In this document: positions 2,658 through 21,817 of the stretch, piece by piece | Layout of the letters: every line of letters starts with the position of its first letter | Numbering within the stretch: position 1 is the first letter of the stretch | IMG/VR virus record: IMGVR_UViG_3300021138_000048 | Coordinates: 1-45,258 of that record | Source of the DNA: a virus | Strand: one strand, 5' to 3' | DNA length: 45,258 bases | Notes under the pieces: model-generated | Told to the model about the DNA's origin: nothing | Seen by the model: the letters and a program-made list of their open reading frames with translations, nothing else | The model's database searches: none | Program-made: the position numbers and the translations under genes

Positions 2658-2686
2658 TTGACAAGTAACTAAAAAAAGAGTATAAT
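2658..2686 (+). promoter_or_regulatory. Consensus sigma70 promoter for the tmRNA gene
   Basis: TTGACA at 2658-2663 and TATAAT at 2681-2686 are separated by exactly 17 bases. Both hexamers match the bacterial housekeeping consensus perfectly. The expected start of transcription is near 2693, about 110 bases upstream of the acceptor half of the tmRNA. This suggests transcription by unmodified host RNA polymerase rather than the phage late system. Confidence 0.75.
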
Positions 2687-2799
2687 GAAAACTGAAAAGT
2701 TAATCTTCAAGCTAAACAAAGCAGAGTTTAAGCATCAAAAAAGAAAAGCTAAAAAACTGTGGCTTAAGATTTTAAGAAAATCATTTAAAAGAAAGCAAA

Positions 2800-3113
2800 C
2801 GCAATCTGTTAGATGATTATGGTTGTATGAAGTAAATCGAAAAGTGTTTTGGACGGGGGTGCGAATCCCCCCAGGTCCACCAAAAGCATACTGTGAGTCG
2901 GCTTGCTGATAAACTTTAAGTAGAGATAGTGTGCTTTTGATGGGCCTGCATAGTTTCGACAGGGCAACAAGTAGAGGCACAGACAACTCGTCAGGAGTAG
3001 ACGTTAAAAGCAAAATTCAATAACTGCAAACGAAGAGTTATACGCATTAGCCGCCTAAACGTGGCTTAGGGTTTCGCCAACTGTCCTAGTAACAGAATCA
3101 GTTGGCATTTTTT
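2800..3113 (+). ncRNA. ssrA: tmRNA, circularly permuted (two-piece) form
   Basis: The acceptor half comes first: T stem GGGGG 2855-2859 with CCCCC 2867-2871, T loop 2860-2866, acceptor strand CAGGTCC 2872-2878 and encoded ACCA 2879-2882. A spacer follows (2883-2940), whose ends pair (AAAGCATACT with AGTGTGCTTT). The coding half starts at 2942 with GGGCCTG, which pairs over all seven positions with CAGGTCC. The third pair is G-U, the alanine identity element. Next come a D-arm-like TTTCGACAGGG, a possible pseudoknot 2986-3002 (ACTC/GAGT, GTC/GAC), and a resume codon GCA at 3026. The tag frame reads ANEELYALAA and stops at TAA 3056-3058. A second pseudoknot follows (CCTAA 3054-3058 with TTAGG 3066-3070; TGGC 3062-3065 with GCCA 3076-3079). 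tmRNA with SmpB rescues stalled ribosomes and tags nascent proteins for proteolysis. The 5' end is approximate, set by a helix TCTGT 2805-2809 with ACAGA 2979-2983. T-loop position 55 is G rather than the usual U. Confidence 0.9.
3076..3113 (+). terminator. Rho-independent terminator of the tmRNA gene
   Basis: GCCAACTG at 3076-3083 pairs perfectly with CAGTTGGC at 3099-3106, followed by ATTTTTT. The left arm also supplies the second stem of the post-tag pseudoknot, so the two folds compete, as expected if the 3' end is trimmed after transcription. The stop codon of the opposite-strand endonuclease (3098-3100) lies in this element. Confidence 0.78.
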
Positions 3114-3562
3114 CTGATATGTTTTGTAAAATTACCAATATTAAATTGTTTATTGCAATGTAAGCAACTCATATATATTTTGTGTTTATTTAATTCAGGT
3201 TTTGTTCCAGGCCTTCTATGACCTTTTGCATGAGTATTACCCAACATAAATTTCCTAATGATTTCTTTATGTTTTTTGGTTCTTTTAGTGCCAGAATTTC
3301 CTTCACCACCATCAGTCATATTTCTTAATATGCCGGTACCTAAATCTTTCCTACCATACCAACGGATAAGACGCCTCTCCAAAGCAAAAGCACCCACTTC
3401 AGAAAGATGTTTTTCGACAATTAGTATGTTTTTGTTGTTTTTTGGTTTTTTTATTTCTTTTTTGCTTTTTTTATAGGCTCTTGTAAAAGATCCTTTTCCG
3501 ATATAGTATGGTGTACCATCTGTTCGTAAATAAGCGTATACATAGAACGAATAAATATTCAT
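3098..3562 (-). CDS. GIY-YIG homing-type endonuclease with C-terminal zinc-finger-like end
   Basis: 154 residues. The N-terminal half is a GIY-YIG nuclease: strand VYAYLRTDG (8-16), PYYIGKG (18-24) in place of the YIG element, Arg28, catalytic-type Glu62 in ALERRLI, and Asn89 in DGGEGN. Residues 93-117 ([13 protein letters not shown], then [12 protein letters not shown]) resemble a NUMOD3-type DNA-binding motif of phage homing endonucleases. The end carries CLHC (133-136) and His148, a possible zinc knuckle. A good AGGAG lies 8 bases before the ATG. It is free-standing, on the opposite strand to everything around it, and its tail overlaps the tmRNA terminator. This fits a selfish element inserted beside a conserved RNA gene. 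It cuts DNA, probably at a tmRNA-flanking or allelic site; the target is inferred. Confidence 0.85.
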
Positions 3563-7447: not shown

Positions 7448-7897
7448 ATGAGTGTCACTCTCAAAAACCTTGAGAGTGCCTTGGCAGGAGAGTCCATGGC
7501 ACATATCAAGTATAGATATTTTGCAAAGATTGCTAGGGAAGAAGGTTTCGAAGAGGTTGCAAAACACTTTGAACATACTGCTGACCAAGAAATCTTACAT
7601 GCATGGAGCCATTTAGAATTGTTAATCGGTAAACCTTCGACTAAAGAATGTTTACAGAAAGCAATCGATGGTGAGACATATGAGTTTACAGAAATGTATC
7701 CTCAGTTTTATTCTATTGCAGTTGCAGAAGGTAAATCTGAAGCCCAAAAAGAGATACAAGAACAAATTGCAGAATCTAAAGAACACGCTGAACAATTCAG
7801 AGAAGTTCTAAAGAAAGCTGAAAAGAAGTTTGCGGCTCTTGCTAAAGTAGAGAAAAGACACGCCGAGGCATACACTAAAGTATTGGAGGCTCTATGA
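7448..7897 (+). CDS. Rubrerythrin (ferritin-like di-iron peroxidase), lacking its rubredoxin domain
   Basis: 149 residues forming one four-helix ferritin-like domain. All the di-iron ligands of classic rubrerythrin are present in order: Glu15 (AGESMAHIKY), Glu48 and His51 (QEILH), Glu76 and Glu79 (GETYEF), Glu109, Glu112 and His113 (ESKEH). The gaps between the first pair and between Glu79 and Glu109 equal those in the Desulfovibrio protein. The family reduces hydrogen peroxide using electrons from a rubredoxin-type Fe(Cys)4 centre, normally fused at the C terminus. Here that part is a separate overlapping gene. Helix C-D continues into a charged KKAEKKFAALAKVEKRHAE tail. It lies 1 base after gp32, so it is cotranscribed with it. 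A phage copy could protect replicating DNA against peroxide; this is inferred. Confidence 0.88.
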   Translation: MSVTLKNLESALAGESMAHIKYRYFAKIAREEGFEEVAKHFEHTADQEILHAWSHLELLIGKPSTKECLQKAIDGETYEFTEMYPQFYSIAVAEGKSEAQKEIQEQIAESKEHAEQFREVLKKAEKKFAALAKVEKRHAEAYTKVLEAL

Positions 7898-19744: not shown

Positions 19745-21817
19745 ATGGCAGGAGCCAATTCTAACATTCAATTATCTGCACTTGATTTCAATTCAGTCAA
19801 ACAGAATTTTATAACATATCTTCAAAGTCAATCTCAGTTTACTGATTATAATTTTGAAGGTTCTGCTATTGATACATTACTTGATGTATTTGCTTACAAT
19901 ACTCAATATAATGCATTCTATTTAAACATGGTAGCTAATGAATTGTTTTTGGATTCTGCTGTTCAAAGACGTTCTGTTGTTTCACACGCAAAACTACTTG
20001 ACTATACACCACATTCGGCTTTATGTCCCGTCGCATTCATAAACATTACATTTACTGGAGTTACTGAACCAACAGTTATATTACCTGCATTTTCAACGTT
20101 TTTGTGCAACCAATTAAATGGTGTTTCTTACGTTTTTACAAATATTGAACCCTATACAGTATCGACGAACTTGATTACTAATACGGCCGTATTTCCAAAT
20201 GTTCAAATTTATCAAGGTGTTCCTGTTTCATATTCATTTGTAGTAAATTCTTCAACAAATCCAACATATACATTTGAGTTACCTGATAGTACAATTGATA
20301 CAACGACAATAGCAGTCGTAGTTCAAACGTCTTCCTCAAATTCAGCGGTACAGGTTTACAATCCGGCCGCAAATAGTTTATACTTAGACGGTACATCTGC
20401 GGTATATTTTATCAATGAATCATTAAACGGCAATTATAATATTTCATTCGGTGATGGTATTTTAGGAAAAAAATTAGTTGATGGTAATATCATAATTATT
20501 TCATATCTTTCTACTGAAGGTACTTCAGCGGCTGGTGCAAATAGTTTTTCATTAATGTCAACTGTTAACGGTTATAATAGTATTGTGAGTGGTTTTTTAC
20601 CGGCAACTAAAGGTTCAAACAAAGAAACTATATCATCAATTAAGTTTCAAGCACCTAAGTCGTATGCCGCTCAAGGTCGTGCAGTCACTAAAGATGATTA
20701 TATTACTGCAATTAAACAAAACACACTGTTTGGTTTTGATGCGGTTAATGTTTGGGGTGGACAAGAAAATAATCCGCCAGTTTACGGGCAAGTATTTGTT
20801 TGTCTAAAGCCATCTGGTGCATACACGTTAACACAAACTCAGAAAAAAGTTATTATTGATAAAATTTTAAGTCCGATTTCAATGATGACTGTAGTGCCTG
20901 TGATTGTCGATCCGGATTATAATTTTATTAAAATTACCGCAAACGTTCTTTATAATTCAACTCAGACTACATTTACGTCCGCACAACTCGCCACCTCTGT
21001 TTTAACAAGTGTTACAAATTTTGCAAATACTACATTAAATACATTCAATTCAACATTCTCCGGTTCACAATTAACAATTTCAATTCAAAATACAAATCAA
21101 TCTATTATTGCAAATGAACTTGCAATTCAATTACAGAAGAAATTTTATCCGAGTTTGACAGTCGCACAAACCTATGTGTTTAATTTTGGTGTTCCTCTTT
21201 CAAGAGGTGTTCTATTAAGTGGAATTACAACTTATCCGGCAATAAAATACACAGATCCCTCAAACCCGTTGAATATTATTGATGGTGTTTACATTGATGA
21301 ATTACCAGAAACAACTTCCGGTATTCAAAAAATTTCAGTTATTAATCCGGGTTATTCATACACACTAACACCATCAGTCACTATTTACGGTGATGGAACT
21401 GGTGCGACTGCTGAAGCAATTATTATTAATGGTTCATTATCTGCGATAAACGTATTGACTCCTGGTTCAGGTTATACGGCCGCTTTAGTCGTAATCACTC
21501 CTGCACCCAATGACACTACAGGTATGAACGGTGCGGGTGTTGCGACATTAGAAGGACAATTTGGTACACTAAGATTGTATTATTACAATCAAAATAACGT
21601 TAAGACTATTTTAAATTCAAATGCAGGCACAATTGATTACACAAATGGTATCGTTACCCTGAATTCTTTTAACCCTTACGATGTAGATAATCCTCTAGCA
21701 CAATTAACAATTTCTGTTAACCCAGCGACAACAATTTTTTCATCATCATACAATAGAATTATTACAGTTGATCCCAATGATCCTAGTGCAATCACTATCA
21801 ATGTTACAGCAAGATAA
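19745..21817 (+). CDS. gp6: gp6-like baseplate wedge protein (baseplate J family)
   Basis: 690 residues, against 660 in T4. The N terminus reads LSALDFNSVKQNFITYLQSQSQFTDYNFEGSAIDTLLDVFAYNTQYNAFYLNMVANELFLDSAVQRRSVVSHAKLLDYTP, a text-book gp6/gpJ start. The middle has FGDGILGKKL and GRAVTKDDYITAIK, both family landmarks. Near residues 525-585 an inserted Gly-rich beta motif occurs (INPGYSYTLTPSVTIYGDGTGATAEA, then LTPGSGYT) that also appears in gp7, gp8 and a later protein. gp6 makes the closed ring that joins the wedges. The stop overlaps the next ATG by one base. Confidence 0.92.
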   Translation: MAGANSNIQLSALDFNSVKQNFITYLQSQSQFTDYNFEGSAIDTLLDVFAYNTQYNAFYLNMVANELFLDSAVQRRSVVSHAKLLDYTPHSALCPVAFINITFTGVTEPTVILPAFSTFLCNQLNGVSYVFTNIEPYTVSTNLITNTAVFPNVQIYQGVPVSYSFVVNSSTNPTYTFELPDSTIDTTTIAVVVQTSSSNSAVQVYNPAANSLYLDGTSAVYFINESLNGNYNISFGDGILGKKLVDGNIIIISYLSTEGTSAAGANSFSLMSTVNGYNSIVSGFLPATKGSNKETISSIKFQAPKSYAAQGRAVTKDDYITAIKQNTLFGFDAVNVWGGQENNPPVYGQVFVCLKPSGAYTLTQTQKKVIIDKILSPISMMTVVPVIVDPDYNFIKITANVLYNSTQTTFTSAQLATSVLTSVTNFANTTLNTFNSTFSGSQLTISIQNTNQSIIANELAIQLQKKFYPSLTVAQTYVFNFGVPLSRGVLLSGITTYPAIKYTDPSNPLNIIDGVYIDELPETTSGIQKISVINPGYSYTLTPSVTIYGDGTGATAEAIIINGSLSAINVLTPGSGYTAALVVITPAPNDTTGMNGAGVATLEGQFGTLRLYYYNQNNVKTILNSNAGTIDYTNGIVTLNSFNPYDVDNPLAQLTISVNPATTIFSSSYNRIITVDPNDPSAITINVTAR

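Follow-up and report, generated by a model that had tools for sequence, protein, structure and literature searches.

A complete two-piece tmRNA gene of betaproteobacterial type in a T4-like phage fragment and its relatives

The locus described here raises the question of whether a phage can own a ribosome rescue RNA, or whether such a gene is a borrowed one that gives away the host. It lies in a 45-kb viral genome fragment (IMG/VR record IMGVR_UViG_3300021138_000048, positions 1 to 45,258), called the window below. The original prediction, made from the nucleotide sequence, proposed a complete, circularly permuted tmRNA encoded by a T4-like phage at positions 2800 to 3113 and took it as a pointer to the host lineage. 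The assignment to the T4-like phages agrees with the gp32, gp59, and baseplate wedge proteins encoded in the window.

Anatomy of the tmRNA gene

A complete circularly permuted (two-piece) tmRNA gene with the tag ANEELYALAA occupies positions 2821 to 3115 of the plus strand. ARAGORN and the Rfam covariance models, two of the checks put forward with the original prediction, both match a permuted tmRNA here and thereby bear out a complete, phage-encoded gene. ARAGORN places it at 2790 to 3149 (+) and reads the same tag. Rfam model RF04321 (tmRNA_permuted) matches positions 2821 to 3058 over model positions 1 to 213 of 213 (135.9 bits; cutoff, 47; E value, 1.2e-26). RF01850 (beta_tmRNA), the top scorer among the competing tmRNA clan models, matches positions 2772 to 3115 (122.7 bits; cutoff, 84; E value, 5e-37). 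Between positions 2600 and 3200, no RNA family or riboswitch other than tmRNA exceeds its Rfam cutoff. The predicted 3' end at 3113 fits these results, but the predicted 5' end at 2800 is approximately 15 to 20 nt early: the first modelled tmRNA pair is found at 2821, and a small conserved open reading frame (ORF) occupies positions 2685 to 2816.

All parts of the gene lie on the plus strand. The acceptor piece (2821 to 2882; RF04321, RF01850, and the pair counts below) comprises the 5' strand of the long helix, the T-arm (2855 to 2871), the acceptor 3' strand CAGGUCC (2872 to 2878, read on the sequence), the discriminator A73 (2879), and a CCA end encoded in the gene (2880 to 2882). It is followed by an intervening spacer (2883 to 2941) that is predicted to be excised and whose ends, as originally proposed, pair with each other (10 pairs, 2883 to 2892 with 2928 to 2937). 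The coding piece (2942 to 3113; Rfam, ARAGORN, and pair counts) starts with the acceptor 5' strand GGGCCUG (2942 to 2948) and contains the D-loop region, the 3' strand of the long helix (2960 to 2966 and 2984 to 2988), the tag frame with its stop codon (GCA..UAA, 3026 to 3058), and the 3' pseudoknot region. GGGCCUG and CAGGUCC form 7 of 7 acceptor pairs, including the anticipated G3-U70 (2944/2876). The tag frame, called by ARAGORN, ends in the ALAA degron that had been predicted and whose codons vary only silently in relatives. A final hairpin with a run of six T residues (3076 to 3113; eight pairs, 3076 to 3083 with 3099 to 3106) is the last pseudoknot stem and a probable terminator. Relatives have a hairpin resembling it, and the T run is present in some of them only.

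Selection on RNA structure and tag

The window and 23 phage relatives were aligned, 12 of the 24 sequences having been found via the covariance model and not by pattern. A 38-pair structure written from the window was then counted against 500 shuffles and against partners slid by one to three columns. Paired cells amount to 93.1%, versus 77.8% in the shuffles, and 27 of the 38 pairs change on both sides, versus 15.2 in the shuffles, none of which (0/500) reaches 27. The covariation score equals 0.484, versus 0.199 for the shuffles and 0.078 to 0.110 for the slid partners, although the slide control leans toward the structure because the latter was taken from one of the aligned sequences, the window. 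The double-sided changes are not accounted for by this bias. Across the 24 sequences, every cell of the acceptor stem is paired (100%), three of its pairs covary, and G3-U70 and CCA are present throughout. In the spacer stem, 95% of the cells are paired and 10 of 10 pairs covary, so the part that is predicted to be excised is under selection as well. Support is weak for one helix, the four pairs that follow the long helix, in which 60% of the cells pair.

The tag was compared across 118 distinct phage tmRNAs, which were extracted with a sequence pattern. In 97 of these it ends in ALAA, and in the codons of these 97 tags alanine varies at the third position only and leucine silently only. The extraction pattern forces GGG, TCC, and an AA-like tag end; as the invariance of GGG and TCC and the AA ending are thus partly imposed, they are not used as evidence, and such invariance is claimed only for the relatives found via the covariance model. 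Judged by these patterns of change, the comparison shows selection in the phages on both the RNA structure and the degron.

Promoter and neighboring genes

A perfect sigma-70 promoter (TTGACA-17-TATAAT, 12/12 match) is located at positions 2658 to 2686 (+), 135 nt upstream of the tmRNA, with a predicted transcript start at approximately 2693. It is the only one in the whole window, for which 0.12 would be expected. Sites matching at 11 to 12 of 12 positions lie upstream of 61 of 130 phage tmRNAs, compared to 19 of 527 control stretches. A -35 box at a fixed position, 95 to 103 nt before the end of the acceptor piece, is found in 28/111 phage and 3/404 control sequences. The window promoter lies approximately 125 nt farther upstream than this position, as does that of the near relative L116.

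The small ORF upstream of the tmRNA (2685 to 2816, +) encodes a very basic protein of 43 amino acids (MKTEKLIFKLNKAEFKHQKRKAKKLWLKILRKSFKRKQTQSVR) and stops 4 nt before the tmRNA. Using tblastn, it was also found directly upstream of the tmRNA in L116, L133, L151, L007, L216, and L152; its relatives in L134 and L171 are placed away from the tmRNA. The protein has no Pfam or PHROG family match. Since its ATG overlaps the -10 box of the promoter, a dedicated tmRNA transcript would not contain the ORF. A role as tmRNA leader peptide was therefore rejected, and the ORF is probably a separate small gene that is not part of the tmRNA unit.

On the other side, an ORF on the minus strand (3098 to 3562) is oriented tail-to-tail with the tmRNA and looks GIY-YIG-like by eye. 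A similar-looking ORF follows the tmRNA in L279 (10418 to 11203, -); both match only PHROGs of unknown function and no Pfam family. Farther downstream, a gene for a rubrerythrin/ferritin-like protein (7448 to 7897, +) adjoins the phage gp32 gene.

Distribution in related phages and absence of SmpB

Relatives were gathered with the gene-6-type baseplate protein of the window (19745 to 21817), yielding 80 related viral contigs. All 12 records that extend 20 kb or more upstream of gene 6 carry a permuted tmRNA, located 13.8 to 19.5 kb upstream of gene 6 and in the same orientation. In this T4-like clade, the gene thus looks fixed and not sporadic. The tags of related records have diverged, e.g., ANDELFALAA, ANDEKFALAA, and ANDSRFALAA. 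Independent pattern scans returned many further permuted tmRNAs in viral contigs. A search for SmpB found none in 11 related phage records, seven of which exceed 150 kb, the same search being positive in 10 of 14 control genomes. Host SmpB would therefore be needed.

Proposed role during infection

The locus very likely specifies a working betaproteobacterial-type two-piece tmRNA of a T4-like phage, transcribed by the host RNA polymerase and processed and charged by host enzymes, which together with host SmpB frees ribosomes and tags proteins during infection. We infer transcription, processing, charging, and tagging, along with the gain for the phage, as follows. The host RNA polymerase would read the gene from its own strong promoter, and the precursor would fold with the spacer ends paired beside the acceptor stem. 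Host tRNA-processing enzymes would remove the spacer, and the acceptor and coding pieces would stay together by base pairing. Host AlaRS would charge the molecule via G3-U70, host SmpB would load it onto stalled ribosomes, and the added ANEELYALAA would lead to destruction of the product by host ClpXP-type proteases. As a guess at the likely benefit, ribosomes would be kept free while host mRNA is degraded, with host tmRNA perhaps limiting. It is plausible that the phage tmRNA replaces or biases host rescue, as had been suggested.

Alternatively, the RNA could serve mainly as a decoy: by occupying host SmpB, AlaRS, or stalled ribosomes, it would block trans-translation by the host instead of adding to it. 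This would be consistent with the phages of the 11 related records bringing no SmpB themselves, and with mycobacteriophage DS6A, whose tmRNA is reduced to the tRNA-like domain, a kind of molecule that inhibits endogenous tmRNA (PMC11915505, PMC4131195). However, a decoy needs no tag, whereas here a tag is retained, its ALAA end changing only silently, and the resume region and final pseudoknot hairpin are retained as well. We consider a decoy unlikely and a working tmRNA the better reading.

Origin of the phage tmRNA lineage

A different explanation is that the ssrA gene of the current host was captured recently and thus marks the host lineage. Host-like phage ssrA is known in other lineages (phage Melnitz paper, PMC9004378), and the betaproteobacterial model is the best of its clan on the window. 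The tag was compared with cellular genomes, as proposed originally for host-lineage tags. ANEELYALAA, searched with all codons and TAA as the only stop, occurs in 0 of 84,980 GTDB species genomes. Its single match among viral contigs, L005, equals the window over the stretch read, and the tag was discarded as a host marker. At least 120 viral contigs contain a D-region signature that the majority of these phage tmRNAs share; in cellular assemblies (GTDB, 257 Gb) it occurs in two contigs, both viral-looking, which speaks against close cellular kin but not against any kin at all, because the signature is derived from phages.

Neither of these two was accepted as a cellular copy. L128 is a 3-kb metagenome-assembled genome (MAG) contig that is packed with tRNAs and phage-like. 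L127 (equal to L279, a contig of a UBP17 MAG) joins phage-like DNA to a bacterial contig carrying a one-piece tmRNA: positions 1803 to 2456 hold a one-piece bacterial tmRNA (tag ADEDYALAA) up to the T-arm/CCA, followed by a phage-type spacer and a permuted coding half with the tag ANDDTYLLAANA. As the join lies exactly at the shared T-arm/CCA, this contig is either an assembly chimera or a phage element integrated at ssrA.

For comparison with bacteria, few permuted genes came from samples drawn at class and order level around G080 and G105, and 12 useful bacterial beta-type tmRNAs were taken from the order of G782. An unrooted tree of 135 tmRNAs was built from 168 alignment columns, which leaves the deeper branching unsure. 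The window lies deep among the phage tmRNAs in a three-row group with 99 to 100% support, its nearest rows are all phage, and L133 and L152 share 88% identity with it over the core. A clade of 112 rows (SH-aLRT, 95) consists of 111 phage contigs, including L128, and phage BUCT-ZZ01. Three bacterial beta rows adjoin this clade but lie outside it, a proximity that would suit a recent capture. Forcing all 120 phage rows into one clade gave a tree that was not rejected (p-AU, 0.916) and that outscored the free tree. Taken with the missing tag, the near absence of the signature from cellular genomes, and the shared place in the 12 long records despite diverged tags, the all-phage neighborhood of the window makes a recent capture very improbable.

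Relation to the host

The suggestion that the tmRNA marks the host lineage is not supported. The signature is spread over the viral contigs counted above and confined to two viral-looking contigs on the cellular side, and the nearest rows are phage. BUCT-ZZ01, the sole isolate inside the 112-row clade, infects Synechococcus elongatus, a control genome of which gave no permuted tmRNA match at an E value of 1e-12. Isolates with a permuted tmRNA infect Stenotrophomonas, Xanthomonas, Pseudomonas, and S. elongatus. Stenotrophomonas, Xanthomonas, and Pseudomonas themselves have a one-piece tmRNA. Because of these hosts, the form of the phage tmRNA is no guide to the host.

On balance, we lean toward the view that phages own and maintain a separate two-piece tmRNA lineage, split from the betaproteobacterial type, inherited within T4-like phages, and usable in hosts with another tmRNA form. 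The last property would make this phage-controlled ribosome rescue and not a gene captured from a host. Two questions become testable: do phages take over ribosome rescue, and is a two-piece tmRNA able to function with SmpB from a host that has the one-piece form?

Coupled changes in the tmRNA elbow

The T-loop of the window (2860 to 2866, UGCGAAU) lacks the usual U55, and its D-loop partner near 2953 is an A. Across the set, G55 co-occurs with A at the equivalent of D-loop position 18 (AGUUUCGAC) and U55 with G (GGUUUCGAC). Among 118 phage tmRNAs, 37 have G55/A18 and 80 have U55/G18, with one exception; among 13 bacterial permuted tmRNAs, the counts are 3 and 10, without exception. On a tree built without those columns, positions 55 and 18 each change 21 times, and in most draws agreement is found in 12 of 12 independent pairs taken from well-supported branches (median p, 0.0005). 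A G at the equivalent of position 55 has been described for Caulobacter tmRNA (PMC1168896). The literature searched yielded no mention of the coupled change, which is no proof of newness. The coupled switch constrains the structure of the tmRNA elbow, and Rfam models make no use of this constraint, as they score no such tertiary pair.

As the switch is concerted and the window has the matching A18, its elbow is compensated, not defective. That the gene is a decaying or nonfunctional copy, to which the deviation of the T-loop from UUCGANU might point, is hardly credible given this match and the intact acceptor stem, T-stem, long helix, and spacer stem.

Comparison with known tmRNAs

One of the closest known systems is the betaproteobacterial permuted tmRNA (RF01850; merged RF04321), which shares the acceptor-spacer-coding order, the full-length model match, an ALAA-type tag, and the paired spacer ends. 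The pairing of the spacer ends, present in the bacterial genes too, was rejected as a phage peculiarity. The two differ in spacer length (phages, median of 77.5 nt, range of 21 to 212 nt, and 59 nt in the window; sampled bacteria, 25 to 44 nt) and in the D-region signature that cellular genomes practically lack.

Phage-borne ssrA is also found in mycobacteriophages and Bacillus phage G, with little beyond the tRNA-like domain in DS6A. The tmRNAs of mycobacteriophages and Bacillus phage G have long been reported and are known as one-piece molecules. Permuted tmRNAs were identified with Rfam and ARAGORN in Stenotrophomonas phages (Menderavirus), Xanthomonas phages X1 and Rb1, Pseudomonas phage FBPa45, and Synechococcus phage BUCT-ZZ01. 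Their tags differ from that of the window (e.g., ANDETFSMALAA and ANDTSFDVRLAA), and unlike BUCT-ZZ01, the others fall outside the 112-row clade on long branches. In FBPa45 (L309, 807 to 1106), Rb1 (L310, 804 to 1109), and BUCT-ZZ01 (L003, 2830 to 3126), the gene has no GenBank annotation.

Phage two-piece tmRNAs as such are already published (2022), namely, in Methylophilales phage Melnitz and Pelagibacter phage Mosig (PMC9004378). Both are likewise T4-like and encode a complete permuted tmRNA downstream of a predicted early promoter, and the Melnitz gene-6 protein is among the closest from isolates (38.7% identity to that of the window). However, the Melnitz tmRNA is reported to be of the alphaproteobacterial type and under glutamine riboswitch control (PMC9004378), whereas the window gene is of the beta type without a riboswitch match. 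In the Melnitz group, the gene is common but not defining (17 of 47 contigs; PMC9004378), compared to all long records in the clade of the window. The same study lists 53 two-piece candidates among 133 unique phage tmRNA structures, mostly aquatic (PMC9004378), and a 2025 tmRNA database holds 79 phage sequences (PMC11915505). More than 100 phage two-piece tmRNAs from public viral contigs are added here, with evidence for selection on RNA and tag.

In a further bacterial order, 5 of 85 genomes carry a permuted tmRNA with almost no spacer (L246, 1501 to 1691; L275; and L276 to L278). The spacer of L246 measures approximately 4 nt, and L246 and L275 share the tag ANDDNFEVALAA.
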